Shown in pieces: positions 1-49,201 of a stretch of 64,000 nucleotides of DNA. How positions within the stretch are numbered: position 1 is the stretch's first letter; each line of letters starts with the position of its first letter. A program made the position numbers and the translations under genes. The notes under the pieces were generated by a model, which had not been told where the DNA came from, did not search any database, and was given only the letters and a program-made list of their open reading frames with translations. Origin of the DNA: a bacterium (GTDB taxonomy: Bacteria > Zhuqueibacterota > Zhuqueibacteria > Zhuqueibacterales > Geothermadaptataceae); NCBI GenBank assembly GCA_024275575.1, contig JAJRYV010000117.1, positions 62,001 to 126,000 on the forward strand. Reading direction: 5' to 3'.

Positions 1-97
1 GAGCAGTATAGTTTATTTCGCCGTCAACCTGCATGCAGGCGATGTGCTCGGGTAATGTCTGCGCGTGCTGTTCGAGAAAGTGGTGGATGAGGTGCAT
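1..97 (-). CDS. AMP-forming acyl ligase (N-terminal fragment, runs off the window)
   Basis: This gene is partial: only about 32 residues are in the window, read from an ATG at 97 leftward past base 1. The translation begins MHLIHHFLEQHAQTLPEH and continues with a short segment ending INYTA. That layout (aromatic/His-rich helix, then a TLP- or TPD-like turn, then a strand ending in an I-x-YTA/YAEL motif) is the usual N-terminus of acyl-CoA synthetases and NRPS-type adenylation enzymes. An AAAGG Shine-Dalgarno-like sequence lies about 7 nt upstream. It follows the ACP and LarA-like genes on the same strand, and acyl-AMP ligases often load such carriers, so the context agrees. The catalytic core cannot be seen, so substrate and exact family are inference. 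Confidence 0.55.
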   Translation of the reverse strand, partial: MHLIHHFLEQHAQTLPEHIACMQVDGEINYTA

Positions 98-160
98 TTA
101 AAACCTTTTGCGTTTGAATGTCGAAATATTGAGACGTTAAAACGTTGAAAAACAAAAACT

Positions 161-323
161 CATTACCAGGCTCTGCCTGGTAATGTCTTGCCGGATGCTT
201 AGCCTCCAGTGCCTGAAACTGCGTACTTTGCAGGCAGAGCCTGCGGGACTGCATTCCCGGCGAGAGACCGGGAACGAGATGAAATCGCTCGGCGAGGACG
301 CCTTCGCTCTATTTTCCTGTGGG
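161..323. repeat. Composite of three hairpins plus a repeated 3' motif
   Basis: This non-coding stretch between the LarA-like gene and the partial ligase holds three palindromes in a row. CATTACCAGG/CCTGGTAATG is at 161-185 (perfect 10-bp arms, 5-nt loop), GCAGGC/GCCTGC at 230-244, and TTCCCGG/CCGGGAA at 254-274. They are followed by GCTCGGCGAGGACGCCTTCG and then CTCTATT at 287-314. The last part recurs in degenerate form near 33304 and 19271. It looks like a dispersed extragenic repeat. Its hairpins could act on the mRNA between the two genes, but no T-tract marks a terminator. ORFs called across it are shadows. Confidence 0.7.
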
Positions 324-359
324 TATCTCAAAACAAAGGACTTTCAAACATTCACACGT

Positions 360-1595
360 TCAAACATTTATCTGAATACTTGCGTGTGGAAAAACCCCGA
401 CTTCACACCCACCCGGATGCCATTTATTTATTTTATCCACGACCGTTTCCCAATTTTTCGCGTAGTGATACCCTTCCCAGTAAATCTGATAAAACTCTTC
501 TTCGCTGACGCCGGGAACGAAAAAAAGCACATTGCGGTTTTTCAGAAAACGTTTGGGCATGGGTTTGCGGTAGAGCACGCCGGAACCGGGCTCGAAAAGG
601 CCGTGTTTACCCAAACCTTCGGAGCAGGCTGCGGTGATGACGATAGTGCCGTTTTCCCGCACCAGCTTTTCACCAACAGTGTGCATATACATAAAAGCAT
701 TTTCCGATTGTAGCAATTCGGTATCTTTGGGATAGGCATTAAAAATCGCCACATCGAGATTTTCTGCAGCTTCGGTGGCATAAATTTCTTTGGCAAACTT
801 TGCTGCTTTGCTGTGGGCTTCGATCAAATCTCCGGCAAAAAAACCAGCCACCTGGCGTTGCGAATTGACCACCACATTCAAACAAAAATCGATGCCCACG
901 TGGCGGGCGATCCGTTCGAACTCAGCACGAAAGCGGTTGTTTTCCAGCGTACCCGGTTTGCTGCGCAGGCCCATCATCACAGCCTTGTGCGTCCAGACGA
1001 TGGAATCGAGATTGGACAGGCCGGGCAGCACCATTTTGGCGCCGCCGCTGAAACCGGCAAAATGGTGCGGCACGACGCTGCCGATCAAAATACGAAAATC
1101 GGCTTCGAGAAATTCTTTGTTGAGCAGCACTTCCATCTTGCCGACCATCACGCCGGCCGGCGCCAGATTTTCACAGCAATCGTGGTTGATTACCCGCAGG
1201 TTGTCGACGATTTCCCTGCCCAGTTTTTTATAAAGCTGTGCTTTGCCGAGTTCCGTGTGCGTTCCCAGGCTCACGATTACGGTGATGGCATCGGCCGGTA
1301 CGCCGGCATAATCGAGCTCGGTGAGCAGTACTTCGAGCAGAAGCTGTGTCGGCGTTGGCCGGCTCAGGTCGTCGACAGCGATGACGATCCTTGTTTTATC
1401 TGCTACCAGTCCGGCCAGATTTTTCGTACCGACAGGTTCTTCGATGGCGGCGACGACTTCATCGTCCGTTAGCGCTATTGCATCCGCCATGGGAAAAGGT
1501 TTTACCTGCCAGCCGGGTCCTATCGACAGATGCAGCTCGCGATCACCATTCCACGCCGCCCACGGCAGCATGATGCCGTCATTTTCTGCGCTCAC
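360..1595 (-). CDS. LarA-like (DUF2088) nickel-pincer racemase/epimerase family protein
   Basis: This is a 411-residue member of the lactate racemase LarA family, which uses a nickel-pincer nucleotide to racemise or epimerise 2-hydroxy acids. Visible family motifs are DDLSRPTP (about 75-82, equivalent to DHTRPTP), LGTHTELG (about 110-117) and PHHFAGFSGGAK (about 176-187). The last carries the conserved His and the Lys that binds the pincer cofactor. The start is a GTG directly abutting the TAG of the upstream ACP gene, and an internal ATG at 1571 is an alternative. No LarB/C/E maturation genes are in the window. Placement between an ACP and an acyl ligase suggests action on a carrier-linked or polysaccharide-destined hydroxy acid rather than free lactate, which is inference. 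Family assignment is strong; substrate is unknown. Confidence 0.85.
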   Translation of the reverse strand: MSAENDGIMLPWAAWNGDRELHLSIGPGWQVKPFPMADAIALTDDEVVAAIEEPVGTKNLAGLVADKTRIVIAVDDLSRPTPTQLLLEVLLTELDYAGVPADAITVIVSLGTHTELGKAQLYKKLGREIVDNLRVINHDCCENLAPAGVMVGKMEVLLNKEFLEADFRILIGSVVPHHFAGFSGGAKMVLPGLSNLDSIVWTHKAVMMGLRSKPGTLENNRFRAEFERIARHVGIDFCLNVVVNSQRQVAGFFAGDLIEAHSKAAKFAKEIYATEAAENLDVAIFNAYPKDTELLQSENAFMYMHTVGEKLVRENGTIVITAACSEGLGKHGLFEPGSGVLYRKPMPKRFLKNRNVLFFVPGVSEEEFYQIYWEGYHYAKNWETVVDKINKWHPGGCEVGVFPHASIQINV

Positions 1596-1832
1596 CTATG
1601 CCGCTTTCTTTTCACGAATAAAAGTACTGATGGCATCGATCGAGTCGAAATTTTCCGGCATAAGTTCGTCATCATCGATTTTAACTTCGAATTCTTTTTC
1701 GAGATAACCGATCAAATCCATCATTTTCAATGAATCGATGATGCCCGCCAGCAGCAGACTGTCGTCATCTTCAACACCGTTATTTTCCAGTTCCGGCTCG
1801 AAAAAAGATCGTATTAATTCTTTGTTGCTCAT
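1596..1832 (-). CDS. Acyl carrier protein
   Basis: A 78-residue acidic carrier protein. The phosphopantetheine attachment motif is IIDSLKMMDLIGYLE with Ser34 as the modified residue, followed by helix III EKEFEVKIDDDELMPENF, typical of acyl or D-alanyl/peptidyl carriers. The ORF track begins at a TTG (1844). The ATG at 1832 is preferred because GGAG sits 6 nt upstream. It would carry an activated acyl group as a thioester in the cytoplasm. Its stop codon touches the LarA-like start, so the two are translationally coupled. The partial AMP ligase downstream is the likely loading enzyme (inference). It is not next to any fab genes, so it is unlikely to be the housekeeping fatty-acid ACP. Confidence 0.88.
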   Translation of the reverse strand: MSNKELIRSFFEPELENNGVEDDDSLLLAGIIDSLKMMDLIGYLEKEFEVKIDDDELMPENFDSIDAISTFIREKKAA

Positions 1833-2013: not shown

Positions 2014-3078
2014 CTAAATATCTCTATCCCCCACAGTCATGTACCAGGCATCGGGGTTCAAAACGTTCCGGTGCAAGCCGTTGCTCTCACTGGTATAGGC
2101 CATGACTTTTGAGGTGGCGTCATCGCGTTCGCGGAAACCGAATTTTCGCAATTGCTGCACCAGCGGATTGGCTTCATGTAATTTTATCGACAGGGTGGAA
2201 AACCCTTTTTTACGATAAATTTTAAAGAGCTGCGCTATCAGCGATTCCAGCAGCCCGCCCTCCGGTGCCACAACGATGTCTGCAACGTGCACCATGCTGA
2301 ATTGCGAAGCAGCCAGTGCGTAACCGCGCAGTTTGCCGTCACGGTAAACTTTCAGCGTATCCACCTGATAGAGCGGGCAATCGATGTAGCGCCAGGTTAA
2401 GTAATCGGCATCACGAAAGCCACTCACCGGGTAATACCGGCGAATTTCCTGATAAAATTCTGTAAATTCTTCACCGAAGGGCTCTTTTTCCACAAAAGTA
2501 AACGACAATGAATCATCGCGGTTTTTCGGCTGCGGCAGGGCTAGATGCACCAGCGGTTGTGCAAAAAAGCCGGCAAAACGAGCCAGGGCCGGCACTTTAA
2601 CAATGTTCAAAAATTTGCGGTCTAATCGCAAGAGCGCCGCGTAGCGTTTCATCAGCCCAATCTGATGATGGCCAACCCGTTCGTGCACCACCGCCATACG
2701 ATCATTGGGGTGGGCGTAGAGAAACGGAACTTCGCCGCTGTCAACGCCATCTTTGGCCGCGCGGCGCAGTTTCACCGCAACGCCCAGGGCGCGGTATTTT
2801 TTGTCGATGGAAAAATCGGCACAATTCCAGGCGAGGCTCTCTTTGCCATCGACGCTCATTTTGCGGGGGAACCCCGCGGTAAAGCCGACGACTTCGCCGG
2901 TTTTATCATCTTCCACCACCCAGGCGGTAGCTTTGCCGTGGGGGTTTTTCAAATATGCCCATTCGAAACGGCGGCGAAAGAGATCGTCGTCGTCGTAACG
3001 CTCGCGGTTGCGCAGCAGGGTTTCCATGAGAATCGGCATTTCTTTTGCGAGATCAGCTTTGCGAACGATTATTGCCAT
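2014..3078 (-). CDS. GNAT-fold N-acetyltransferase, exopolysaccharide-associated
   Basis: A 354-residue soluble protein with a GNAT-like N-terminal half. After VVGFTAGFPRKM there is a strand NCADFSIDKKYRALGVAVKL (about 100-120) that matches the acetyl-CoA-binding motif A region, and PFLYAHPND then VHERVGHHQIG resembles the following strand-helix. The C-terminal half contains a second GNAT-like strand pattern (DTLKVYRDGKLRGYALAAS). It is typical of large double-GNAT acyltransferases found in surface-polysaccharide loci. Neighbours are a GT4 glycosyltransferase upstream and the ACP gene downstream, so it might transfer an acyl group to an amino sugar; that is inference. No membrane segments are visible. 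Confidence 0.7.
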   Translation of the reverse strand: MAIIVRKADLAKEMPILMETLLRNRERYDDDDLFRRRFEWAYLKNPHGKATAWVVEDDKTGEVVGFTAGFPRKMSVDGKESLAWNCADFSIDKKYRALGVAVKLRRAAKDGVDSGEVPFLYAHPNDRMAVVHERVGHHQIGLMKRYAALLRLDRKFLNIVKVPALARFAGFFAQPLVHLALPQPKNRDDSLSFTFVEKEPFGEEFTEFYQEIRRYYPVSGFRDADYLTWRYIDCPLYQVDTLKVYRDGKLRGYALAASQFSMVHVADIVVAPEGGLLESLIAQLFKIYRKKGFSTLSIKLHEANPLVQQLRKFGFRERDDATSKVMAYTSESNGLHRNVLNPDAWYMTVGDRDI

Positions 3079-3357: not shown

Positions 3358-4590
3358 TTAAATGAACTCCGGTGCTATTTCTATTTCAGGCAGCGAATGA
3401 ACCGGTTGCTGTACTTCGCGCCAACGGGTAATTTTTTCTTTTAATCTGGGGCTCAAGTTTAATTTTTCTTCCGCCAATTCGATGTACAGTTTTTCATAGC
3501 GCCGGATCATTTGTGTAAAAGTAAAATTCTCTTCTACTTTCCGGCGTCCGGCAGCGGCGAACGCCCGGCGTTTATCAGTGTTTTGCAGCAGATCGAGTAT
3601 TGCTGCCGCCATTTTTTCGTCATTATCCGAGGGTACGAGCAAACCGGTTTTATCGTGGCTCACCAGCTCGGGATTGCCGCCGACGTCGGTGGCGATTACC
3701 GTGCGTGAGCAGGCCATGGCTTCGAGGATGGTGTTGCTCATGCCTTCGCTGAAGCTCGGCAGAATGAACACATCCATCGCCCGGATGTAGTCGGGTATAT
3801 TTTTACGCCAGCGAATAAAAATCGTGTTTTCAGAAATGCCCAGCTCACGAATCATGGCTTTCGTTTCCGGATACAACGGCCCGGCGCCGACCAGCAATAG
3901 GCGTGCATTCGGCATTTGGGTGAAAACTTTTTTTGCTGCACGCAGAAGCAAGGGGTAATTTTTTACCTGCACCAGCCGGCCGACAGAACCGAAAACCGGC
4001 GTATCTTCCGGCAAATATACCAGCTTTTTAAAATCGCCACATCCGTCGTGAGCGCTAAATTTTTCCAGATCGACACCGTTGACCAGCGTGTGGATCTTTT
4101 CTCCGGGATAGCCGATGCGCTGCGCCAGTTGATCGCTCAGAACCCGGGAAACACTCAAAATACGGTCAAATCGATCCCAGATAAATCGCTGTACAATTTT
4201 ATGTTTGCGACTATCGTCTTTCATGGTGCCGTGTTCGCCGTGGATGAGCACCGGTGTGCGAGCTATTTTTGCCCCGGCAAATCCTTCGATGAGCGTGCTC
4301 CAGGCATGGGTGTGCAGCGCGTGGATTTCATGGCGGTACAGTTGCTGCGCCACTTTGAACGGCAGTGTTGAATCGTTGCCCCATTTGCGGCCGGTTGCAA
4401 CGATGGTGCAGCGCGCCGGGTCGACCATTTTCTGTAGCGAGCCACCCTTCAAAAAGGTGATAATATAATTCTCAAAAATGCTGTTATCGGTGTTGTTCAC
4501 CAAGTTGACAATGCCATTTTCCTTGCCGCCAAAATGCAGAACCTGCATCAGATGGGCAACACGGATTTTATCGATCGGATTTTTTTTCAA
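3358..4590 (-). CDS. GT4-family glycosyltransferase
   Basis: A 410-residue retaining glycosyltransferase with the GT-B fold. The N-terminal acceptor domain starts IRVAHLMQVLHFGGKENGIV. The C-terminal nucleotide-sugar domain has GSVGRLVQVKNYPLLLRAA (about 204-222), LLLVGAGP, and the E-x7-E signature region PSFSEGMSNTILEAMACSR followed by TDVGGNPELV. It should add one sugar from a nucleotide donor to a lipid-linked polysaccharide intermediate at the cytoplasmic membrane. Start is a TTG only 5 nt after the stop of the GHKL gene, so the two share a transcript and are probably coupled. Donor and linkage cannot be read from sequence. Confidence 0.88.
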   Translation of the reverse strand: MKKNPIDKIRVAHLMQVLHFGGKENGIVNLVNNTDNSIFENYIITFLKGGSLQKMVDPARCTIVATGRKWGNDSTLPFKVAQQLYRHEIHALHTHAWSTLIEGFAGAKIARTPVLIHGEHGTMKDDSRKHKIVQRFIWDRFDRILSVSRVLSDQLAQRIGYPGEKIHTLVNGVDLEKFSAHDGCGDFKKLVYLPEDTPVFGSVGRLVQVKNYPLLLRAAKKVFTQMPNARLLLVGAGPLYPETKAMIRELGISENTIFIRWRKNIPDYIRAMDVFILPSFSEGMSNTILEAMACSRTVIATDVGGNPELVSHDKTGLLVPSDNDEKMAAAILDLLQNTDKRRAFAAAGRRKVEENFTFTQMIRRYEKLYIELAEEKLNLSPRLKEKITRWREVQQPVHSLPEIEIAPEFI

Positions 4591-4595
4591 TGTTT

Positions 4596-7500
4596 TTAAC
4601 TCTGGGTGTTAAAAATTTTTTGTGTCATCCTCATAAAAATAGTATCTGTTTTATTTTTATGCGTTCCCTGTTTACTGCTTTTAGCTTCCCGGTGCAAATT
4701 CTTTAAGGCAGGTGTAGTCATTTCATGACCAGAATTGGCAGTGTTTTCCCCCGAATCTTCCAGCTTGCCGATCATGGAATCTTCTATTTTTACCCCAATT
4801 GCCTTTAGAAACCAATGCTTGAGCCAATCGCTGTCATCCTTCAGCCATTCCTGCGCCCAAAGAGGCAGTGCATCGGGATTCACGTTTTGGGGCGCCGCCG
4901 GCGAATAGACAATATTCTGCGGGCGAAAGCCGATGAGAAGATGTATGTTTTCGCTATTATAAGATAACTGGTCATCTTCATCCATGCCGTGCTCGAAAAC
5001 GTTTATTTCGATTTCGGCAGGCTTTTCCGTACGCCATTTATTGAATAGTTCAAAGAAAAATGCTTTTTGTACTGAAAGTTCTTCAGCAATGTTGGCCGCG
5101 AATGCCGGACAATAATAAGTCGCGTTATGAAGATTGGGTTGATAACAAATCACAGGTTTTTCAGCAATATGAAGCACCCAGCGGTCGCTGTTGAGGCTCA
5201 ACAGGTTATTGATTTCAAAATAACCATTCAGGATGAGTGCCGGCGCGATAAAACTGAAGTTTTGTGTGACAAAACATCCGTTGACAAGCTCCCTGTTGCC
5301 GGCCAGCGTTTTTATTTCAAAGCCGTTTAAAATATCGAAATTTTTTTTACTATGGCTATTTGAAATCGCATATAAAATCAAAAATGCGAGTTGATGGGCA
5401 TTTTGCAATACGGTTGTTCTTTTTTTCAATTCGTCAAAAATCATCGAATGCTTTTCCAGCACCCGCGGTTTGAAAATAGTATTTCTCAGAGAGACTTTAT
5501 TTTTGAAATTCGTGAACTGATCGAGGAGGTTATCGACAAAACCGCTGCTTACGGTAAAATGGAGCAATATCTTCGATAAATTTAACGGTGGCAGCATACC
5601 CAATTCAGCGATATCGAAGTTGACAATATAATTATCAAGTATATTTTCAATCTTGATAAATCCGCCCGCAGTCAGTTCGATGTGGATCTTGCGCTTAAAT
5701 TCTTCCAGCAGCTTTTCATTTTCTCTGTCCATCAGGCATTTGATAGCGATATCAAAAATTTTGTGCTGAAATGTGCCGTCATCGTAATTCTCATCTTGTT
5801 TAACGGTTATTTGAGGGATGTTCAACAAGTATTCGATCACCTCATCCTCAAAATCCACCATGTTATTGCGTATTTCCGGCTTATCGATCAGCGCTTCCCA
5901 TTCCGGATAAATAATTCGCTCCAATATGTGTTTATCCTGCATGAGATAGTTTTCCTGGAGCTCGGGAAAATATTCATCAGCCTTGATTTGGTAGGAATGC
6001 ATCCAGGTCGGGTATTGATCGGGTGAATACGGAAGCAGTTGCCCCAAAGGTTTGATCGCGCCTTGCATATCACAAAACAATGTCAATTCCGGGAGCCTGT
6101 CAAGAATTCTTCTGTCAAACTGATCAATAAAAGTGGAAAGCATTTTCTTTTTTTGATCAGTGTCAAGTTCATTTGCTTTTGATTTAACCGCATCCTGAAT
6201 CAGCTCTAACAGAATCGCATCTTTTTGCAGATAGAGCAACCTCTTTTCAATATTGAATTTTATCCTTCTAAACCTGTCGTCGGAAATATCGATATCGGAA
6301 AAGATAAAACCGATCCGGGTGAGTTCGTGCTCAATAGTCTGGGTATGGTCTAAACAAAATAATTTATTTTTATTAGCGTCCTGCGCCAGCTCATTGATAG
6401 AATAAAAAGCATCGGCAAATTTAAATAGTTTCAGCCTGAGAAATTTATTCATAAATTGAGCCGGTGGATTATAGCCGATATTGTCGTTTATTTCAACAAG
6501 CAGGCGGTAATATGCATCTTTATCTTCTTTTTCATTTTTTTCAACCCACTTGTTAAACTGCTTCATCTTGTGTTTATTGCTCAGGGCTTCGATGATATCC
6601 CTGACAGTCCAGGCTTTAAGGGAGAGTTTAGAGTCTGTTTTTTCATTGCCGTTTTTTGTAAAAAGGCTGGCTTCCTGCACCAACAGGTCGTCGGTCCAAT
6701 GAAACCATTCTATCTCGGCAATGCCGAGATCGGTAGGTTGAATATCGAGCGCGGTGTTTTTTATGCGGACATTTTTTATCGGCAGACACCAATTCTCGTC
6801 AGTTGATTGCGTAGGAATATTTTCCCGCAGGTAGGCTAACAGGGCTTCATAAAGCGGCTGGTCAATCCATCGCTTGTGCCTTTCTTTTGCTTTACCGCTT
6901 AACAGCAGGGTGGCATAGATAGATTTAAACCTTTCTTTATCCTTCTTTTTATAAACTTCCAGTTTTTCCGTCAATTTTTCGGCACATATTTCGAGCAGCC
7001 TTTCGTTGATACCATAACCGGATTTATCATTTGCATCACCGCCAACGTGCAGGCTGCTGCGATGGCTGCCATTGTAGAAAGCATTGGAATGGAGAATAAA
7101 ATTCAGATTGTGCACTTCGTCATCAAGGGGAAAAAACAGGTAAAAGTTGGGAAAACCTTTAATAAGCTCAGTGGAAATTTTATAATCACGACAATAGCCG
7201 AACAGCATTTCGATATCTCTGTTCTCACTGCCTTCGTCTTGCCAGGGGCTTATGTATTCATAGTCCGGACTGTGGTATGGAATCAGAATTTTCTCAAATT
7301 CAAGGTCTACAGGTTCAATTTGCTCGCTTGAATTCAAAAAAACATTGCGTAATCCCTTTTTCCCCGAAGCTTCGGCTGATTTATTCAATACGCTGAGAGA
7401 GAATTTCGCTCCATGTTCCAAATTCTCTCTTTCGAGATAGCTGCGCTTTCCCTTTCCGAGTTTTATAAAAAACAAGGAACCCTGCTCGAATTTCTTGAGA

Positions 7501-8279
7501 TCGATTTGACCTTTATATTTATTGAGCCATTCGGTTAATCTCATTAACTCCTGTGAAGCGAACAAGTCGTCTCGCTTTTGGTAGTTAATATCAAATACTT
7601 TTTCGTTGGGTTGGCAGGGAAAATTGGTCACCAAAATCTTGAACAGCCAGGGATCGGAATTGCCGCATTCATGCCTGTCCATCTCATAGCCGTCGCCGGT
7701 AATTTTTTTATAGTTTTGTGCTGCCGGCTGTATCTCGTCAATGCTTTTCAGGCTAATCAGTTCTTTCAACTGTGCTCTTTTTGCCCAACTGAAAATGACC
7801 GGCCCCAGGTGTTTTTGGGTCAATTCTTCAATCCCGGAATTCTCACCAATCAAGCGATGCACCAGTTTGAAGCCGATCCCAAACTTGCCGATATCACTCC
7901 TGCTATCTTTTGTCGATGAGCCAACATTCAGCAAAGAGCGCACACCTTCGAAATCAAATTGTTTACCATTATTCATAACCAATAAATAATCGTCGTCATA
8001 ATACATACAAAAATGAGTGCTGTCGGCATCCACTGCGTTCTGCAGAAACTCATAGAGCACCTGGCTGTCCTTTGCCATATCCAAAAAACTGGTGAGAAAA
8101 CTTCCCCTTCTGATATCCGCTTTATCACCATGATAAATGTGAAAAAAGCCATAGATATTTTTACCATTCGGGAATGTTTTCTTTTGACCCAGGAAGTGCT
8201 CAACTCTGCTCTCTTCGTGGAGGTCATTCACTTTTTCTTTGTAATAAGTTCGAAAGTCTCTGATGTTTTTAATCTTCAC
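4596..8279 (-). CDS. Sacsin-like GHKL ATPase, 1227 residues, function unknown
   Basis: A very large soluble protein. Its N-terminus holds a GHKL (Hsp90/histidine-kinase/MutL) ATP-binding site: N-box YEFLQNAVDADSTHF (about 76-90), G1 region LLVMNNGKQFDFEGVRSL (about 99-116) and lid/G2 region SDIGKFGIGFKLVHRL (about 128-143). The NADDA-like N-box and NNGKxF G1 are those of the sacsin/NOV-type subgroup. The remaining 1000 residues show no domain I recognise and no membrane segments. The start is a GTG with GGGAGGG about 8 nt upstream. By eye the gene is more AT-rich than its neighbours, hinting at acquisition. Related long sacsin-type ATPases occur in defence islands, so a defence role is possible, but none of the usual partner nucleases is present. 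Confidence 0.75.
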   Translation of the reverse strand: MKIKNIRDFRTYYKEKVNDLHEESRVEHFLGQKKTFPNGKNIYGFFHIYHGDKADIRRGSFLTSFLDMAKDSQVLYEFLQNAVDADSTHFCMYYDDDYLLVMNNGKQFDFEGVRSLLNVGSSTKDSRSDIGKFGIGFKLVHRLIGENSGIEELTQKHLGPVIFSWAKRAQLKELISLKSIDEIQPAAQNYKKITGDGYEMDRHECGNSDPWLFKILVTNFPCQPNEKVFDINYQKRDDLFASQELMRLTEWLNKYKGQIDLKKFEQGSLFFIKLGKGKRSYLERENLEHGAKFSLSVLNKSAEASGKKGLRNVFLNSSEQIEPVDLEFEKILIPYHSPDYEYISPWQDEGSENRDIEMLFGYCRDYKISTELIKGFPNFYLFFPLDDEVHNLNFILHSNAFYNGSHRSSLHVGGDANDKSGYGINERLLEICAEKLTEKLEVYKKKDKERFKSIYATLLLSGKAKERHKRWIDQPLYEALLAYLRENIPTQSTDENWCLPIKNVRIKNTALDIQPTDLGIAEIEWFHWTDDLLVQEASLFTKNGNEKTDSKLSLKAWTVRDIIEALSNKHKMKQFNKWVEKNEKEDKDAYYRLLVEINDNIGYNPPAQFMNKFLRLKLFKFADAFYSINELAQDANKNKLFCLDHTQTIEHELTRIGFIFSDIDISDDRFRRIKFNIEKRLLYLQKDAILLELIQDAVKSKANELDTDQKKKMLSTFIDQFDRRILDRLPELTLFCDMQGAIKPLGQLLPYSPDQYPTWMHSYQIKADEYFPELQENYLMQDKHILERIIYPEWEALIDKPEIRNNMVDFEDEVIEYLLNIPQITVKQDENYDDGTFQHKIFDIAIKCLMDRENEKLLEEFKRKIHIELTAGGFIKIENILDNYIVNFDIAELGMLPPLNLSKILLHFTVSSGFVDNLLDQFTNFKNKVSLRNTIFKPRVLEKHSMIFDELKKRTTVLQNAHQLAFLILYAISNSHSKKNFDILNGFEIKTLAGNRELVNGCFVTQNFSFIAPALILNGYFEINNLLSLNSDRWVLHIAEKPVICYQPNLHNATYYCPAFAANIAEELSVQKAFFFELFNKWRTEKPAEIEINVFEHGMDEDDQLSYNSENIHLLIGFRPQNIVYSPAAPQNVNPDALPLWAQEWLKDDSDWLKHWFLKAIGVKIEDSMIGKLEDSGENTANSGHEMTTPALKNLHREAKSSKQGTHKNKTDTIFMRMTQKIFNTQS

Positions 8280-9326: not shown

Positions 9327-10499
9327 TCAGTCTTTAATCACTTTTTTAATCTGTTTTTTTATGTTCCGCCATTTTGCCTGTGCTGCAAAATGCGTTGCCG
9401 CTGCTTTGGAAAATGCGATTTCGAGAATAAACGTATCCCGTGTTTGATCGGTCCAGCGGAATTTGTAATCTTCCAACCCGCGCAGAAAATCATATTCATG
9501 TGCGCCTTCATCGAAGCTGGCTTCGATGGCTTTGCCCATGACCACCATACCGATGCTCTTCTTTTCCATTTCCGGTTCCATGCCGGCCTGGTAGTAATAA
9601 ACATGGCCGCCATAGGAAAAACAGTAAAGCGTCGCCACCGGTTGCTTATCAACTTCCAAAATAAAAAAACGCAAATAACCGCTTTGCAGGAGAACAGGGG
9701 CAATGTGCCGGTGAAATTTTTCTCGCTGCGGGTCGTCAAATTTGCTTGCTCCCTCGCGTGTCGCCCAGCGCTTGCGGTGCAGATCATAAAGTATGGTTAC
9801 CGCCTGCTCCGCCTCAGCCAGCGTTTCGGTCAGACGAAAATTCACACCGTGGTTTTTTTGCAAATTGCGCGTACGGCGGCGTATGTTGTAGCGCATGTTC
9901 TTTGAAAGGGAATTGATAAAACTGTCGTAATCTCCTTGCAGTGGGATGAATGGGCAGGTTTTCCAGTCGCGTTTTTCAGCATAAATCGTTTTTTGTGCGG
10001 CCCATTTTTGCAGAACTGGCACAAGAAACGAATCATCGCGCAAATCACTGAAGTGCAGGCCATGCGTCCCGGACTGCTGCAGTGATTCGAGCGCTATATC
10101 AACGATCTGTGGATCATGGTCTGCGAGGATGAGTGCATCAAGATATTCCGACGACTCATGACCGGAGCCGATGAAATAAAACAGGTGCAGCTTCCTTCGG
10201 AAAATACTTCGAACGGCAGCTTTGTATAAGGGTAAAATCGCCTGTATCTTACCGCTCACATCACGGATGACGATAATATGCAGTATTTTTTTCACCCCAA
10301 TAGTTTGGTAAAATTCCCACCAGTGGAATTGCCATTCCCAGGTCAGGAAAAAACTTTTTTTTGCGCTTTGTGCAAGCAGAGCATTCCATTCGTTTTTGAG
10401 CCGACGGAAAGCGGAAACCTCGCTAATTATTTCGATTTTTAGCTCAATTACGGGGGTGGGCACAACCGAAGTACATTCCGTCAAAACATCTGGCCTCAA
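9327..10499 (-). CDS. CelD/BcsL-family GNAT acyltransferase
   Basis: A 390-residue protein of the CelD/BcsL (Acetyltransf_6, FemAB-like) family common in exopolysaccharide loci. Visible marks are FFLTWEWQFHWWEFY near residue 50, SKNMRYNIRRRTRNLQK near 200, and the C-terminal GNAT half with VYYYQAGMEPEMEKKSIG and YDFLRGLEDYKFRW. The family transfers acyl or aminoacyl groups, probably onto polysaccharide or its lipid-linked precursor. The start appears to be TTG, overlapping the TGA stop of the deacetylase gene as TTGA, so it is translationally coupled to it. A deacetylase feeding an N-acyltransferase would fit re-acylation of an amino sugar; this is inference. Confidence 0.8.
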   Translation of the reverse strand: MRPDVLTECTSVVPTPVIELKIEIISEVSAFRRLKNEWNALLAQSAKKSFFLTWEWQFHWWEFYQTIGVKKILHIIVIRDVSGKIQAILPLYKAAVRSIFRRKLHLFYFIGSGHESSEYLDALILADHDPQIVDIALESLQQSGTHGLHFSDLRDDSFLVPVLQKWAAQKTIYAEKRDWKTCPFIPLQGDYDSFINSLSKNMRYNIRRRTRNLQKNHGVNFRLTETLAEAEQAVTILYDLHRKRWATREGASKFDDPQREKFHRHIAPVLLQSGYLRFFILEVDKQPVATLYCFSYGGHVYYYQAGMEPEMEKKSIGMVVMGKAIEASFDEGAHEYDFLRGLEDYKFRWTDQTRDTFILEIAFSKAAATHFAAQAKWRNIKKQIKKVIKD

Positions 10500-11533
10500 T
10501 TTAAAATCCGTTTAATTTTCCCCCAGACTCCGGTGATTTTTGACAGAAAAAACGGAAAGTTTGGCGAGCGTACGATATTGACCCTTTTCAAAGCGAAGAC
10601 ATCATCCCCGACGCGATTAAGGCCGTCAATTTGTGAAAATGCTGCGGCGTATCCGGTTTCCTGCAGAATGTTTTTATCCCGGCGGGAAAAATCTTTTTCA
10701 GTCCCGTTGGGATAGCTGAACAGGGTGCAGGGGCGGTTGAGCTGCGCTTCGAGTGCGATCTTTGCGTTGAGCAGTTCGGCCTTTACGTCATCGTGGGAAA
10801 GGGTCGATAAAATGGAATGGCTGCAGGTATGCGAGCCGATTTCGATAAGCCCGGACCCTGCCATTTGACTGATCTCATCCCATTGTAAAAACGCGTAGCG
10901 TTCGTCCATTTCATCGAGAAAATTGCGCACGCCATCGATTTGCTTTTCGAGCATCATGATATGCCGCTCACGTTCGGAGCGGCTTTTACTTTTGAGCAAT
11001 TTACGAATGCGATCTGATGACTTGATTTTATTCTCCGGCGTTGAAATGTCGAAAGTGCCTTCAGCGTCATCGATCGGCAGGCGCAACCGGCGAATGGTGG
11101 CGCTGTAAATGATCGAATCGATACGCTCTGTCCACAATTTCGCGCCTTTTGTCCCGATAAAATCCGTTGTTACAAAAATCGTTGCCGGGATGCCGTATTT
11201 TTGCAGCACCGGAAAAGCCACTTTAAAATTATTGTGGAAACCATCATCGAAAGTGACGGCAACAACATTTTCCAGCAGCATTTTTTCACCTTTGATCATT
11301 TGGACCAATTCGCAGAGATGCACCGGGCGATATTTCTTTTTCAACCAGTGCATCTGTTTTTCAAACATCTCTTTGGAAACACAGTTGCGGTTTACATAAT
11401 TTTCCGAACCGGTTTCAAGAACCCCATGATAGGTCAGGACGAGCGCTTTTTTTGAGTTTAACCGGCGCATCAACTCAAATAAACCCGTGATCTGCATCGA
11501 ACCGTAAAAAATGGATTTCAACAGCTTTGACAT
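10496..11533 (-). CDS. NodB-type polysaccharide deacetylase
   Basis: A 345-residue carbohydrate esterase family 4 protein. The NodB core is clear: ALVLTYHGVL, then AVTFDDGFHNN holding the catalytic/metal Asp pair, and EIGSHTCSHSILSTLS holding the metal-binding HxxxH. It removes acetyl groups from N-acetyl-hexosamine in a polysaccharide or precursor. The ORF track starts at 11575, but the ATG at 11533 (MSKLLKSIF) has GAGAG about 9 nt upstream and no extra N-terminal tail, so it is preferred. No strong signal peptide is seen; action may be cytoplasmic or membrane-peripheral. It overlaps the CelD-like gene by 4 nt. Confidence 0.87.
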   Translation of the reverse strand: MSKLLKSIFYGSMQITGLFELMRRLNSKKALVLTYHGVLETGSENYVNRNCVSKEMFEKQMHWLKKKYRPVHLCELVQMIKGEKMLLENVVAVTFDDGFHNNFKVAFPVLQKYGIPATIFVTTDFIGTKGAKLWTERIDSIIYSATIRRLRLPIDDAEGTFDISTPENKIKSSDRIRKLLKSKSRSERERHIMMLEKQIDGVRNFLDEMDERYAFLQWDEISQMAGSGLIEIGSHTCSHSILSTLSHDDVKAELLNAKIALEAQLNRPCTLFSYPNGTEKDFSRRDKNILQETGYAAAFSQIDGLNRVGDDVFALKRVNIVRSPNFPFFLSKITGVWGKIKRILN

Positions 11534-11760
11534 GGTTGGTGTTTCTCTCAAATTAGGATAAAAAAAATTACACATTAACGACAGATCATCGCCAAATTAA
11601 AACTGATACATTATCCATCCATGGTCTGTTCGAGGCAATCTTTTCTGAAAAAACGCATTTCTCCCTGCTTGCCATGAAAAAGGAGATGATTGAATTTACT
11701 AACCCGGGGAAAGGGGTGCCGCATGCTCTGCTCAGGCGAAATAATTGCTTGATTTATACC

Positions 11761-13128
11761 TTACAAGTGAACTGATTGCGGAGCTCGAATCCCTGGTTGC
11801 ACCGGTGTATTAACCGGTTTTTTTATCTGTTCTTCAATGATGTCGGCGTAGAGCGATTCACCGACAAGTTCCGCATTCGGAAAGCGTCTGTCGAGATTGT
11901 AGAGCAGGCAGCTAAAAGCAACAAACCAGTAAATCGTGTCCAGGTCCTGATAGTTGTGTGTATAGATGCCGGCCGTGATCCCGAGCATGCCGATTTCCAG
12001 GCCCAGGGCATAGAGTTGCAGATAGGTCGGCGGCCGGTCGTTTGATATTTTCGAGCGCACTTTACGGAAAAACCACCAGGTTGTCATCGCCATGGTCAAC
12101 CAGATGATGATACCCGGAAACCCTTGCTCGGCCGTAATTTTGAGATAGGTATTGTGTGCGTCCCGCACACCGGTGACGGCGAGTTCCTCTTCCGGCACGT
12201 AATCGACGGACATCGAGGAGTAATGGCCTTTGCCGATACCGAGGGGATAATCGGCGATCATTCTCAGGCTGGCATCATTGATGACACCGCGCGAGGCGGC
12301 ACTGCCTTCAGATTGCGGATCGAGGATGGTGGCCATATTGGTCCAGTAATCCGGCGGCGTCAACACAAAGACGAAAATAATGCCGCCGAAGGCAAAGGGC
12401 AGAATACTCTTTCGGCGAATACGATTCGGTGTAAAAATAAAGAAAAATGTGAAAGATGTCACTAACCCGACGAAAGTGGAGCGCATGCCCTCGTTAGTGA
12501 TCGGAAGAAAATCCAGAATAAAGGGAATGATGCCGTAAGCCATGATTTTTTCATATTTGCTGCCGTAAAGCGCGAAGAGAATGAGCATGGGGAAAAACAT
12601 GATCAGGTGCGTGCCGGTGCCGCCGGTAGCGATACCCATTTCTTCCTCGTTGATCCAGCCCCATTCGCCGCCCCAGCGCGCCATGAATGAGGTATAAAAA
12701 CAGGAAATCAAAATCACCCAGATGAGTGTTTTCATCTCTTTTTCAGTGCGTACGATTTTAAACATCAAATAACTGAAAAGTACAATTTTCAGAAAATCGA
12801 TCGTTTCGAGGAAGGCATAACCTTTGTCGATAGTTGCCCAGATGCAGGTGATAAAACCCCAGCCAAGAAAGAGAAATAACCATTTCAACGGCACTTCCAC
12901 ACGGTTTTCATCCTCACCGGTAAATTGATTGATATTGATCAGGTAAGAGATGATGAGCACGATGCTGAGTACGAACTGGAAACGAATATCTTCCAGTCCA
13001 CCGCCGAGCTGGCGTGGGTTCATGTGGAAAACAATGATATTGGCGAGCACCCCGATAAACGGCCGGCGCAGCATCCAGCCGCACGCGACGATAAGGATGA
13101 TGTATGCAAGTATTTCTCGTAAAAACAA
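11761..13128 (-). CDS. O-antigen ligase/polymerase-like membrane protein
   Basis: A 455-residue polytopic membrane protein with about 10-12 hydrophobic segments. The opening MFLREILAYIILIVACGWMLRRPF and IVFHMNPRQLGGG resemble the putative O-glycosylation ligases linked to exosortase-type loci. The periplasmic loop before VRDAHNTYLKITAEQGFPGIIIW carries the conserved Wzy_C His (H-N-x-Y). It should polymerise repeat units or ligate glycan to an acceptor on the outer face of the inner membrane. Start is a TTG with AGGGAAAG just upstream. It sits between the flippase and the deacetylase genes. Whether it is a polymerase or a ligase cannot be decided from sequence. Confidence 0.82.
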   Translation of the reverse strand: MFLREILAYIILIVACGWMLRRPFIGVLANIIVFHMNPRQLGGGLEDIRFQFVLSIVLIISYLININQFTGEDENRVEVPLKWLFLFLGWGFITCIWATIDKGYAFLETIDFLKIVLFSYLMFKIVRTEKEMKTLIWVILISCFYTSFMARWGGEWGWINEEEMGIATGGTGTHLIMFFPMLILFALYGSKYEKIMAYGIIPFILDFLPITNEGMRSTFVGLVTSFTFFFIFTPNRIRRKSILPFAFGGIIFVFVLTPPDYWTNMATILDPQSEGSAASRGVINDASLRMIADYPLGIGKGHYSSMSVDYVPEEELAVTGVRDAHNTYLKITAEQGFPGIIIWLTMAMTTWWFFRKVRSKISNDRPPTYLQLYALGLEIGMLGITAGIYTHNYQDLDTIYWFVAFSCLLYNLDRRFPNAELVGESLYADIIEEQIKKPVNTPVQPGIRAPQSVHL

Positions 13129-13321: not shown

Positions 13322-14866
13322 TCAGACTGCGTTCTTTTTTTCTGAAAAAGAGAAAAACCGTGCTTTTGCTTTTCGTGCTTTTTTGCGGATTTTTTTCATC
13401 ATTTTTTGCGAATCACCACCGAGCTCCTTCAGTAGGTCTTGCACGAGCTGAAAACGAAAAAGAAAATGTGAGGCAAAATACACAGCCATGCCCAGCAACG
13501 TTAAAATGATCAGCATGGCCAGATTCGGGAGCGGGTGAGCGGTCTCAAAGGAAAACCTGGCAGCCAGCATTGCTGCAAGCATGCTGAGGCTGGCTACCGT
13601 CGCCGGCAACAAAGGTTCGAGGCAATCGAGCCAACTGATTTCAGATTTTTTTGTTATAATGGCGATCATCACCAGCATGACGATGAAAGAAACGATGAGC
13701 ACCGCGGCTGCAACACCGGCAAGGCCGAATTGCACACCGAAATAGGCTGCCACGCCGATGAGCACGAGCTCAATTCCACGACGAAAGGCAGTATATTTCA
13801 CAAAGCCGGTGGCCGTAAGCACAGAGTTGATGAATGGATCGATGGAGAGCAAAATACCGGCGGCACACATGATTTGCAGCGGTACGATGGTTTCCAGCCA
13901 CTGATCGCCGAGCAATACCGGCACGAGATACGGCGCCACCACCGCCATGCCGCTGAGGATGGGAAAACTCACCAAGCTGACGACGAGTACCACTTTGCGG
14001 AAGGCGGAACGCACCCGCTGCGGTTCATCCTGAATTCGTGCGACAGCGGCAAAAACCACGCTGTTCATGCCTTTTGTTAAATGTTTCTGCGGTAGACGCA
14101 TGAGACCGAAAGCTTTTTCGTAAATACCCAGGGCGCCGCCGCCGAGTACTTTTAAAACCATAAAATTTGCCGCATTGTCTGCCCCATAACGGAAGAGATT
14201 GCGCAGAAAAACCATGATGCCGAACTGAAAAAGCTCATTGGCGGCTTCTTTGTCGAGTTTTATTTTCGGCACCCATTTCATCATCATCGCGGCCCAGACG
14301 CCGACGATAGCAATACCGATGATTTTGCTGTAAATCAGGCTCCAGAAGCCATAACCCGCGAAAGCCATGGCGATAGCGATGATGCTTTCGATGATCCGTT
14401 CGGTCATCATGATAATGGAACGGTTTTTAAAATCGAGATTGCGCTGCATCATCGCCAGCGGAGTGGTAGAGAAACACTCCAGCACCATATAAAACGAGAT
14501 AACCGGCAGCGAAGCGACGAGACCGGTATAATCGACACCGTCAAAAAATGCTGCAATGGCTTTGGTGCCGATTAATATGATGATCCATAGTGTAATTTTG
14601 AATGCCATATCCATAGTAAACAATGTATTGATATGCACTTCCGTCACTTCGGCATTGCGCTGAATCAATCCCATATTGAAGCCGAATTCGCCGAATTTTG
14701 TAGCGAAACCGATGACCAGCCAGCCGGTTGCCGCCATGCCGAAATCTTCCGGCGTCAGCAGCCGGGCGAGAAAAATGATATTGATGAAATGCAATCCGAT
14801 GCCCGCGAAACGGGCGCCGCTGTTATATAAAATGCCGATTTTGGCTTTGCTTCCAAGATTTTTCAT
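13322..14866 (-). CDS. Wzx-type polysaccharide flippase (PST/MOP superfamily)
   Basis: A 514-residue membrane protein with about 12-14 transmembrane segments. It opens GILYNSGARFAGIGLHFINI and continues IIFLARLLTPEDFGMAATGW, the characteristic N-terminus of polysaccharide transporters (Polysacc_synt/PST family). It should flip undecaprenyl-linked repeat units across the cytoplasmic membrane. A basic, Lys-rich cytoplasmic tail (KKIRKKARKAKARF) ends the protein. ATG start, no strong ribosome site visible. It precedes the polymerase-like gene, giving a complete flip-and-polymerise pair for this locus. Confidence 0.88.
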   Translation of the reverse strand: MKNLGSKAKIGILYNSGARFAGIGLHFINIIFLARLLTPEDFGMAATGWLVIGFATKFGEFGFNMGLIQRNAEVTEVHINTLFTMDMAFKITLWIIILIGTKAIAAFFDGVDYTGLVASLPVISFYMVLECFSTTPLAMMQRNLDFKNRSIIMMTERIIESIIAIAMAFAGYGFWSLIYSKIIGIAIVGVWAAMMMKWVPKIKLDKEAANELFQFGIMVFLRNLFRYGADNAANFMVLKVLGGGALGIYEKAFGLMRLPQKHLTKGMNSVVFAAVARIQDEPQRVRSAFRKVVLVVSLVSFPILSGMAVVAPYLVPVLLGDQWLETIVPLQIMCAAGILLSIDPFINSVLTATGFVKYTAFRRGIELVLIGVAAYFGVQFGLAGVAAAVLIVSFIVMLVMIAIITKKSEISWLDCLEPLLPATVASLSMLAAMLAARFSFETAHPLPNLAMLIILTLLGMAVYFASHFLFRFQLVQDLLKELGGDSQKMMKKIRKKARKAKARFFSFSEKKNAV

Positions 14867-45992: not shown

Positions 45993-46844
45993 TCACTCCC
46001 GCGTCGTCCTGCTGCGAATCCGACGACGTGAGGCGCGCCATTTCACCCCGACTTCCCGCATAATCGCCAGGATAAACAAAGGGTTGTAAATCAGATAGCG
46101 CATCCACAGACGGCGTGGTTCGTATAACAGGCGAAAGAGCCATTCGAAGCCGTGATTGCGCATAATCGGGGCGGCCTGTTTTTTGGTGCCGGCGTGAAAC
46201 TCGAAAGCTGCGCCAACCGCCGCGAGCACCGGTGTTTGCAATCGCGGGCGCATTTTCGCCATCCATTTTTCCTGTTTCGGGCTACCGATGGCGATCCACA
46301 GCACATCGGCCTGGGCCGCGTTTATTTCAGCGATATGGGTTTCTTCCTCAGCCGCTGTCAGCGCCCGGAAAGGCGGAGAGATTTTGCCGGCGATTTGCAG
46401 AGTGGGAAAATGCCGCAACAAGTTTTTTTCGAGGGAATCGAGAACGCGTTTATCGCTGCCGTAAAAAAAATGCCGGTAACCCGCATTTTCGCTCAGCGCA
46501 CAAAGTTTCAAAAACAAATCCGGCCCGTAAACTCTTGTTTGCAAAGGGGTATCGGTAAACCTGGATAACCACACCAGTGGCATACCGTCGGCGACGGACA
46601 GGGTGAAATTTTCAATGGCACGATTGAGTTCGGCATCAAACTGTGAGCACATGATGGTGTAGACATTGGTGAAGCCAACAGACATCGCCGAGCGGTCACG
46701 AATCGCGGTCTCGATTCTGGCGATGGTTTGGGCATAATTCACGAGATCGATGCGTGTACCGAGCACTTCGGCGGTGCGTGGCTGGTTTCCCTGAAAAATT
46801 CCTCTTGCGGCAATCGATTCGAATGGAGTATCCTGGCTAATCAT
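45993..46844 (-). CDS. WecG/TagA/CpsF-family glycosyltransferase (GT26)
   Basis: A 283-residue GT26 protein. Core motifs: GTRIDLVNYAQTIARIETAI, FTNVYTIMC, SVADGMPLVWLSRF with the catalytic Asp region, ADVLWIAIGSPKQEKWMAKM (GxPxQE) and HGFEWLFRLLYEPRRLW. The family adds the second sugar (often ManNAc-type) to undecaprenyl-linked GlcNAc. A C-terminal basic tail is probably membrane-associating. It overlaps the Wzz stop by 1 nt (TGATG), so it is translated straight after it. No priming phosphoglycosyltransferase was seen, so that enzyme must lie elsewhere. Confidence 0.9.
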   Translation of the reverse strand: MISQDTPFESIAARGIFQGNQPRTAEVLGTRIDLVNYAQTIARIETAIRDRSAMSVGFTNVYTIMCSQFDAELNRAIENFTLSVADGMPLVWLSRFTDTPLQTRVYGPDLFLKLCALSENAGYRHFFYGSDKRVLDSLEKNLLRHFPTLQIAGKISPPFRALTAAEEETHIAEINAAQADVLWIAIGSPKQEKWMAKMRPRLQTPVLAAVGAAFEFHAGTKKQAAPIMRNHGFEWLFRLLYEPRRLWMRYLIYNPLFILAIMREVGVKWRASRRRIRSRTTRE

Positions 46845-48271
46845 CAGTTCCTGTGTAATTCTGAATGAATTCCTTCTCCGCCTAATAATGCGGCTGTAAC
46901 CCGTTGCATCGTCGATTGTTCTGCGTCTGGGTTTTCGACGGAATATTTATGTACGTAATGCGTGACAAAAGCAACGCTCAGGCCGCTGAACAATCCAACG
47001 AAAAGCGAGATAATAAAACCGATCCGCCGCTGCGGACGCGAATGGTGAATCGGTACCAGCGCCGGGCTGACGGTGAGCACCCGGATGCCGTGCTGCGCTT
47101 TTTCCATCGAAAGGCGGGCGTTATCGCGCTGGCGCAGAAGCATGGAATAGAGTTCACGCGTATCCGCGATACCGCGGGAAATTTGTGTCAATTTATAATC
47201 CGTGGTCGAAAGTTTCCTGATTGCAATGCGCACACTGTCCATCGCTATCTTTAATTTTTGTTCCTGCGATTCTAACACTTTGATGCTCGTCTCTTCCTGC
47301 TCAATGATGTCATTGATTTCTTTTAAAAACTTTTCCTCGGCTGAGGCGATGCGGCTTTCCACCTCGACGACTTCACTGTAAGTCGGTGAAAAATTACGTA
47401 ACAGCTCATCACGCTGTGTCTGTAAAGTATATAATTCCGTCTTTAATTTTGTTAAATATTCAGCCCGGCTGGGACTGTCGCTGATCTCGGTCGCCGGAAT
47501 GACGGTTTCCTTGCCTACCTGTACTTTCTCACGCATGATCGCCAGGCGCGATTCCTTGCCGATGCGTTTTGTCTGGAGGTTGTTCAAAATCGACTGGTAG
47601 TCCGAAAGTTTGGCCAACAGCAGCGTCCCCTGCGATTTCGGTTCTACCAATACCGCCGTATTTTTAAAGCCGCTTTGTTTTGATTCCAGGGCCTGCAGCC
47701 GCTTGTCTGCTTCCGCAAGCTGGTTTGAATAAAACTCGTAGGCCTCGGTTTCCCGGAACAGGTCAGTGCGGTATGTCCGATAGGATTTGATCACCTGTTC
47801 AAGAATTCGGGCGGCCACATCAGGAGCAAAGCTTTCATAACGCAAGCGCAGAACTGCGGAATTGCTCAATTGTGTGAGGCGAATATTCTCACGTAAATTC
47901 TCAATACATTCTTCGCGGACAAAACGCAGGTCTTTTTCATCGAGTGGTAAATCATCGGTGGTAAAATTATCGAGCCCGATAGCTGTGATGGTCATTTCGG
48001 CGACAGGCCGGCTTTTAATGATTTGTATTTCCGCATTGATCCAGTCGAGTTTGTCGAACAGATTGGGGATATTGACGCGAAAAAGCATCGCCTTTTCAGA
48101 GTCGTTTAGTTTCTCCAGCAAGATATCAGCCACAGATTCATATTTTTTCGGCATCAGCAGGAGAATGAGCACTCCCAATAATGTAATACCAGTCGTTATT
48201 GCGGCGATAAGTCGCTTGCGCTGAAAAATGATCGAGACAGCTTCGAGCAGGCGGCTGTTCCCTGTTTCCAT
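46844..48271 (-). CDS. Wzz/GumC-type chain-length/copolymerase protein
   Basis: A 475-residue inner-membrane protein: N-terminal transmembrane segment (LIAAITTGITLLGVLILLLM), periplasmic alpha/beta base (about 45-160), long coiled coil (about 190-400), and a C-terminal helix after the PxxP region (PIHHSRPQRRIGFIISLFVG). It controls polymer length and connects the inner-membrane machinery to Wza. The ORF track begins at 48313, but the ATG at 48271 has AGGAG 6 nt upstream. There is no fused BY-kinase domain (no Walker A), and no separate kinase gene lies nearby. Confidence 0.88.
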   Translation of the reverse strand: METGNSRLLEAVSIIFQRKRLIAAITTGITLLGVLILLLMPKKYESVADILLEKLNDSEKAMLFRVNIPNLFDKLDWINAEIQIIKSRPVAEMTITAIGLDNFTTDDLPLDEKDLRFVREECIENLRENIRLTQLSNSAVLRLRYESFAPDVAARILEQVIKSYRTYRTDLFRETEAYEFYSNQLAEADKRLQALESKQSGFKNTAVLVEPKSQGTLLLAKLSDYQSILNNLQTKRIGKESRLAIMREKVQVGKETVIPATEISDSPSRAEYLTKLKTELYTLQTQRDELLRNFSPTYSEVVEVESRIASAEEKFLKEINDIIEQEETSIKVLESQEQKLKIAMDSVRIAIRKLSTTDYKLTQISRGIADTRELYSMLLRQRDNARLSMEKAQHGIRVLTVSPALVPIHHSRPQRRIGFIISLFVGLFSGLSVAFVTHYVHKYSVENPDAEQSTMQRVTAALLGGEGIHSELHRN

Positions 48272-48490
48272 ATGAAACTCCTGGCTAAAATTGAAATTTT
48301 TTTGATACACCATGCCGGCGTATTATCATCAGGTGAAGTATCTCGTTCGGCAGCTCACGCACATTACTGCGGGCTTCATCTAAAAGTAACTGGAAACGCC
48401 GCAGTATCTTGCCTGCCGCAATGAATGGCTGGATTCTACAATTGACAAGCAAGAAGAAAATCTCGCCATGGATATGGCTGAACAGATACT

Positions 48491-49201
48491 TTACTGCCAG
48501 AGCAGAGCACGTACGTAAACATCGATCGGGGGTAAAATTGTGCTATAAAATTGACGCATAATCTTATTGGCATTGCCCAAAGTGGTGGCAGGGACAAATA
48601 TTAAATCGCGTGCCTGGACATATCCCAGTTTTTGCACCGCATTGCGTTTCGCAATCGGCCGCAGGTTGAGAAAAAACTCCTGTTTATCCGTCAGGCCATC
48701 ACCGCGGATCAGCAGGACATGGCTCAGTTTTGCCATATCCGTCGGCCCGCCGGCCACCGTCAACGCCTGCAGATAAGTCATTTCATTGTCGAGTGGATAC
48801 ACGCCAGGTTCATTCACCTCCCCGAATACAAAAACTTTCTGGCTGGCAAATTCTTTGACAAAAACTGTGACCTCGGGATCGATGACAAACGCTGTATAGG
48901 CTGTTGTGATGACGCTGTCGAGCTGGGCAGGCGTTAAACCGGCTGCGGTCACATCACCAATACGTTCGAGGGTAATACGTCCGTCCGGTCGCACGGTTTG
49001 CTCCCGGGAAAAACGTTCGTTTTTATAGAATTTCACTTCGATGATATCACCGCAGCCAAGGCGGTATGCCGGGAATGTTTTTACTGATGGGGCAACAGCG
49101 GTACGGTTCGTGGAGAGCGCAGGTGCGGAAACGCCGCAACCCGCTAAAAAATAAATCCCTGCAAGCAACAGAGTGGATAAGATATGCTTTTCGACCATCA
49201 T
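48491..49201 (-). CDS. Wza-type outer-membrane polysaccharide export lipoprotein
   Basis: A 236-residue lipoprotein of the polysaccharide biosynthesis/export family. The signal ends in the lipobox LAGC (LSTLLLAGIYFLAGC). The Poly_export domain is YRLGCGDIIEVKFYKNERF, and the SLBB domain is VFVFGEVNEPGVYPLDNEMT. It should form the outer-membrane channel for the polymer. It lies 219 nt upstream of Wzz and heads the locus. Two adjacent ATGs (49201 and 49198) are possible starts, with GAGAAGAGAG upstream. It is short compared with E. coli Wza, typical of GumB/EpsA-like members. Confidence 0.9.
   Translation of the reverse strand: MMVEKHILSTLLLAGIYFLAGCGVSAPALSTNRTAVAPSVKTFPAYRLGCGDIIEVKFYKNERFSREQTVRPDGRITLERIGDVTAAGLTPAQLDSVITTAYTAFVIDPEVTVFVKEFASQKVFVFGEVNEPGVYPLDNEMTYLQALTVAGGPTDMAKLSHVLLIRGDGLTDKQEFFLNLRPIAKRNAVQKLGYVQARDLIFVPATTLGNANKIMRQFYSTILPPIDVYVRALLWQ

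Follow-up and report, generated by a model that had tools for sequence, protein, structure and literature searches.

A conserved gene set links a LarA-like protein without Lys298 to an acyl carrier protein and an acyl ligase in a surface-polysaccharide locus

At one end of the window (the whole 64,000-nucleotide stretch of DNA analysed here, positions 62001-126000 of contig C96 in genome G000, which is 4.96 Mb long and 97.7% complete), a gene for a LarA-like protein lies between genes for an acyl carrier protein (ACP) and an AMP-forming acyl ligase. The protein belongs to a clade of LarA proteins that lack Lys298, and conserved gene order links this clade to the acid-activating ligase and the carrier in a glycan locus. 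The set probably yields a hydroxy-acid group, adjusted in its stereochemistry, that decorates a sugar; the literature we searched describes no such role for the LarA family. We put at about even the chance that the genes form a glycan-acylation cassette, in which the ligase and ACP supply a 2-hydroxyacyl group, the LarA-like protein sets its stereochemistry, and a transferase moves the group to an amino sugar. If this is true, nickel-pincer chemistry would extend to surface-polysaccharide assembly.

The genes follow one another on the minus strand in the order listed (L002 is the locus that continues to the left of the window):

2014..3078, minus strand: tandem-GNAT-like protein of 354 aa, encoded immediately upstream of ACP (PF00583, E = 1.4e-9)
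1596..1829, minus strand: acyl carrier protein, 77 aa (PF00550, E = 2.7e-8; alignment of 15 homologues)
360..1595, minus strand: LarA-like protein, 411 aa (PF09861, E = 1.2e-46; alignments)
1..97 and on to L002:10565, minus strand: N-terminus of the AMP-forming acyl ligase, 510 aa when whole, the rest lying outside the window (PF00501/PF13193; TIGR03098, 431.6 bits)
L002:10288-9170, minus strand: wecB, after the ligase (TIGR00236, 339 bits)

There are zero bases between the ACP stop codon (TAG) and the GTG start codon of the LarA-like gene. The initial annotation had noted this abutment and the ligase N-terminus on the same strand (window 97-1), both of which we confirmed, and had called the three genes a packed set; this description holds for ACP and LarA, which are directly joined, but not for the ligase, whose start is 262 nt from the LarA stop. 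Its further expectations, that the gene on the left encodes an adenylating enzyme, that the trio is conserved in relatives, and that the genome carries pincer-cofactor genes, were all borne out by the results below. The 262-nt spacer includes palindromic repeat sequence, and such repeats occur in intergenic DNA at window positions 160-290 (LarA/ligase) and 1905-1935 (GNAT/ACP), for example accaggctctgcctggt; gcaggcaaaaaatgcctgc.

Our in-depth search covered one phylum, Calditrichota, represented by 82 metagenome-assembled genomes (MAGs). Full-length relatives of the LarA-like protein occur only in the order to which the window belongs, with 76-80% identity in G068 and G069, and 53-55% in G076, G077, G079 and G081; G074 has a C-terminal LarA fragment at a contig end. 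The clade was not found in the MAGs G075 and G078, where it may have fallen into assembly gaps. In each of the six genomes in which the two genes can be read, ACP lies next to LarA; these genomes span two families. The spacing varies from an 8-nt overlap (G076 and G077) to gaps of 0 (G000), 16 (G079), 35 (G081) and 137 nt (G069), and in each of the six the ligase is downstream of LarA on the same strand, with a helicase-PLD gene in between in G069 and SBBP-repeat genes in between in G076 and G079. Conservation of this gene order over two families, at 53-80% LarA identity, is far beyond chance. The LarA clade has 100/100 support and is separated from other Calditrichota LarA proteins by a long branch (2.16 changes per site), and the ligase tree splits in the same order as the LarA tree. 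In a search for orthologues outside the phylum, a contig query with the single protein, which reaches close relatives only, gave just the two relatives already known. A plasmid search returned only ordinary LarA proteins, at ≤34% identity, and scans of viral contigs found no homologues of the LarA-like protein.

Ligase homologues with 48-51% identity are also present near an ACP gene, without the LarA clade, in polysaccharide or other loci of G056, G067, G038, G013, G037 and G004, and more distant ones are near ACP in G007, G048 and G057. Because the pair occurs in Calditrichota that do not have this LarA clade, sequence comparison identifies ACP and ligase as an older, established acyl-loading pair in the phylum, which LarA joined later and in one order only. 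Several of the LarA-free loci hold an AsnB-type amidotransferase, a NadE-like protein and FemAB-like transferases, and a module of ACP, AMP ligase, AsnB-type amidotransferase and NadE-like protein recurs in other Calditrichota polysaccharide loci (L088, L089, L090 and L095). We rejected the idea that LarA is a plain replacement of AsnB/NadE: neither gene adjoins the ligase in G056, G067 or G004, and the genome containing the window has AsnB-type genes elsewhere.

The LarA-like protein scores 158.9 bits against the Lar_N domain PF09861 (cut-off 23.3) and falls far below the NCBIfam cut-off of every LarAH subfamily that has a name, among them lactate, malate and LarAH10, the best score being 269.3 bits against the 500 needed for LarAH6. 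We aligned seven sequences of the clade and compared them with 23 other Calditrichota LarA sequences. The equivalents of the cofactor-site residues D72, R75, K184 and H200 (here D76, R79, K187 and H203), of the acid-base pair H108/H174 (H113/H177) and of Q295 (Q296) are invariant in 7/7 and in the phylum's aligned LarA proteins. On other contigs, the genome has larC (451.4 bits), larB (280.7 bits) and larE (311.2 bits), each scoring above its curated cut-off; larC is present in 12 of the 15 genomes of the order. This LarA-like protein is the sole Lar_N protein in its genome and so, with larB, larC and larE present, no other evident user of the cofactor is encoded there. Since the three genes are present and the cofactor-site and catalytic residues are invariant, it likely depends on the nickel-pincer nucleotide (NPN).

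Key motifs are intact in the two partner proteins. ACP has a PP-binding domain with an intact phosphopantetheine serine in the motif DSL (GIIDSLKM), and DSL is conserved among the 15 aligned homologues. Extension to the left of the window gave a complete ligase gene (L002:12097-10565, 510 aa, mostly outside the window) encoding a member of the ANL superfamily, with matches to PF00501 (E = 1.5e-86, 291 bits) and PF13193 (E = 4.3e-19, 69.7 bits) and with intact P-loop, YGATE, HTGDL, GRKRDMIKSG and PKNASGK motifs. Its score against TIGR03098, the XrtA-associated ligase family, is under the cut-off of 592. A stretch in its pocket reads LPFPYVYG in the LarA-linked ligases and LPFYYIYG or LPFYYVFG in the LarA-free ones, a difference that names no substrate.

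Judging from these intact motifs of known families, the ligase would adenylate a small acid and load it as a thioester on ACP. The LarA-like protein would bind the NPN supplied by the genome's LarB, LarC and LarE, and would set the α-carbon configuration of a 2-hydroxy acid by proton-coupled hydride transfer, either before loading, while the acid is free, or once it is carrier-bound. The GNAT encoded upstream of ACP, or the FemAB-like enzyme coupled to a deacetylase, would then acylate an amino sugar with this hydroxyacyl group.

Several observations weigh against this cassette. In place of K298 the sequences of the clade have Asn299 (7/7); the Lys is retained in the 23 Calditrichota LarA proteins that we aligned from outside the clade. 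The motif Q295-x-V297-K298 has become Q296-x-E298-N299 in all seven, with no gap between the Gln and the Asn and with an invariant Glu, and a 4-residue insertion follows Asn299. About 27 C-terminal residues, the Trp358 region among them, are missing. In LarA, K298 is catalytic and W358 is in the substrate pocket, and inversion of the stereocentre may be absent in homologues without K298 (PMC7583248). With Asn for Lys298 in 7/7 and no Trp358 stretch, the LarA-like protein is, on its sequence, not a textbook free-acid racemase, and that it is a standard 2-hydroxy-acid racemase, the reading in the initial annotation, is in doubt. The AlphaFold model of the protein, built from 3 sequences, has a predicted local distance difference test (pLDDT) score of 45, too poor for inspection of the pocket. 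Since ligase and ACP pairs exist without LarA, the acid that is loaded may be something other than the 2-hydroxy acid supposed in the initial annotation. Its choice of the adjacent GNAT as transferase is similarly weakened: in G081 the GNAT gene is away from the trio and beside a GT4 gene instead. Lastly, larC was not found in the MAG G074, in which the LarA gene is a fragment at a contig end; this may be an assembly gap.

LarA groups without K298, whose substrates are unknown, have already been noted, and physiological roles are unknown for many LarA homologues (PMC7583248). The present clade suggests a case in which the gene neighbourhood hints at the substrate, giving a testable substrate class: a 2-hydroxy acid or a 2-hydroxyacyl-ACP. 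The second of these corresponds to a narrower form of the cassette, in which the LarA-like protein works on the 2-hydroxyacyl thioester on ACP and not on the free acid. A thioester has no free carboxylate, which would explain why a carboxylate-binding lysine and part of the C-terminal lid have been lost. The changes around K298 and at the C-terminus are found throughout the clade. LarA is also coupled more tightly to the ACP gene than to the ligase gene, from which it is separated by other genes in G069, G076 and G079. The substrate carboxylate is, however, held by R73, H107, H173 and Q295 as well as K298 (PMC11851776), and the contacts R75, H108, H174 and Q295 are kept, while the Asn could still hydrogen-bond a carboxylate. 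The predicted structure is unusable on this point, and the literature searched gave no example of a LarA homologue with a thioester substrate. Attractive as it is on the grounds of the lost lysine and the tighter coupling to ACP, action on the carrier is in our view unlikely; because the four other carboxylate contacts are kept, the free acid is at least as likely a substrate as the ACP-bound thioester. We propose only with considerable reserve that this is a nickel-pincer enzyme dedicated to surface-polysaccharide decoration, epimerising or in some other way transforming an ACP-held 2-hydroxyacyl thioester; if real, it would, as far as the literature searched shows, be the first LarA superfamily member to depend on a carrier.

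In this clade the pincer cofactor might instead serve not racemisation but some other hydride-mediated chemistry on the acid or sugar, such as oxidation, or dehydration via a 2-keto intermediate. Such reactions have been raised for LarA homologues without K298 or H174 (PMC7583248), and the long branch to the other Calditrichota LarA proteins is consistent with a change of chemistry, but the two histidines that catalyse racemisation are invariant and the set has no conserved gene for a second redox partner, making this improbable to our minds. We are equally doubtful that the genes serve no single pathway, with ACP and ligase decorating the glycan and LarA providing or removing a hydroxy acid in general metabolism. 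ACP and ligase pairs without LarA elsewhere in the phylum, and the unrelated genes that separate LarA from ligase in several genomes, would fit such a division. However, the adjacency of ACP and LarA, with gene overlap, has been kept over two families despite insertions around it, and the LarA clade occurs nowhere else in the 82 genomes.

The glycan-acylation cassette has a setting that is unmistakably one of polysaccharide synthesis and export, a Wzx/Wzy-type surface-polysaccharide locus, with these further genes in the window:

3358..4590, minus strand: GT4 glycosyltransferase (PF00534, E = 2.9e-39)
9327..10499, minus strand: FemAB-like acyltransferase (PF13480, E = 1.4e-34)
10496..11575, minus strand: polysaccharide deacetylase, CE4 (PF01522, E = 1.6e-24)
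11761..13128, minus strand: O-antigen ligase/polymerase-like protein, TIGR03097-like (PF04932, E = 4.3e-18)
13322..14866, minus strand: Wzx-type flippase (PF13440, E = 4.6e-71)
45993..46844, minus strand: WecG/TagA-family glycosyltransferase (TIGR00696, 146.8 bits)
46844..48313, minus strand: chain-length determinant (TIGR03007, 100 bits)
48491..49201, minus strand: polysaccharide export protein (PF02563, E = 4.1e-21)

The presence of wecB and a WecG/TagA-type transferase suggests an N-acetylmannosamine-type sugar in the polymer. Strong matches to the GNAT protein within the phylum are confined to the LarA-carrying order, and its gene neighbours a GT4 gene both in the window and in G081; a sequence search for a structure matching it found none. 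The CE4 deacetylase and FemAB-like genes overlap by 4 nt (window 9327-11575). The deacetylase could free an amine for acylation, and we regard the pair as a candidate for acyl transfer equal to the GNAT.

The initial annotation knew of no described system with this trio in a polysaccharide locus. This stands for the LarA element, since our literature search found no text connecting a LarA/DUF2088 protein with an acyl carrier protein, but a parallel has been described for ACP and ligase loading an acid destined for a polysaccharide, and what is new here is LarA. The parallel is the tetronate of Vibrio cholerae O1, where ACP and ligase load a 2-hydroxy acid; the genes (VC0248-VC0252, wbe/rfbKLMNO) include an ACP, an AMP ligase and a transferase, and the acid comes from de novo synthesis by dehydrogenase/reductase enzymes. 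To our knowledge the tetronate set has no LarA protein, and we know of none in the described exopolysaccharide loci of the XrtA/PEP-CTERM type. The latter resemble our locus in that the ligase is related to TIGR03098 and neighbours resemble TIGR03097, TIGR03088 and TIGR03007. We rejected an exosortase/PEP-CTERM system here, all of these matches being below cut-off and the genome having no match to exosortase (PF09721). The D-alanyl ligase and carrier DltA/DltC likewise comprise a dedicated ligase and a small carrier that decorate a surface polymer, but the similarity of the ACP is weak (19 bits), and Dlt uses an amino acid and has no LarA. Within the lactate racemase superfamily, the nearest curated proteins are LarAH6/MAR2 malate racemase and LarA (~25-35% identity across residues ~45-330). 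They share with our protein the NPN-binding residues, both catalytic histidines and a genomic context with larB, larC and larE, but not the Asn at K298, the missing Trp358 segment or the link to ACP. By analogy, the CE4 deacetylase beside an acyl or aminoacyl transferase in a glycan locus recalls the VimE/VimA pair of the Porphyromonas linking-sugar pathway, which is proposed to exchange N-acetyl for another acyl group and whose VimA has relatives in PEP-CTERM loci (PMC7468200). Porphyromonas differs in transferring Ser/Gly, and the phrase 'acyl carrier' is absent from the text of that paper.

The locus seems to collect defence-like inserts. Within it, window 4596-8279 encodes a 1227-aa Sacsin/HATPase-type protein that matches TmtA in PADLOC (679 bits), making it a defence candidate, and the helicase-PLD protein between LarA and ligase in G069 (L039:4869-8129) is defence-like in resembling MkoA (181 bits). 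The proteins at the corresponding place in G076 (L041:3288-9465) and G079 (L042:13022-16312) are of ~1000 aa, with a repeated 'VAVDxxGNVYVTG' (SBBP-type) motif and a C-terminal tail like those of the type IX secretion system. About 3.4 kb to the left of the window there is a diversity-generating retroelement (L002:6889-8608, which is G000:C96:56889-58608) with an Avd-like gene (PF22296) and a reverse transcriptase whose gene is interrupted by a frame break. Its template and variable repeats are 119 bp long and identical at 106/119 positions, nearly all mismatches being at template adenines. The variable repeat terminates an FGE/lectin-like stretch, and an open reading frame with a NACHT domain is located upstream (4892-5791).
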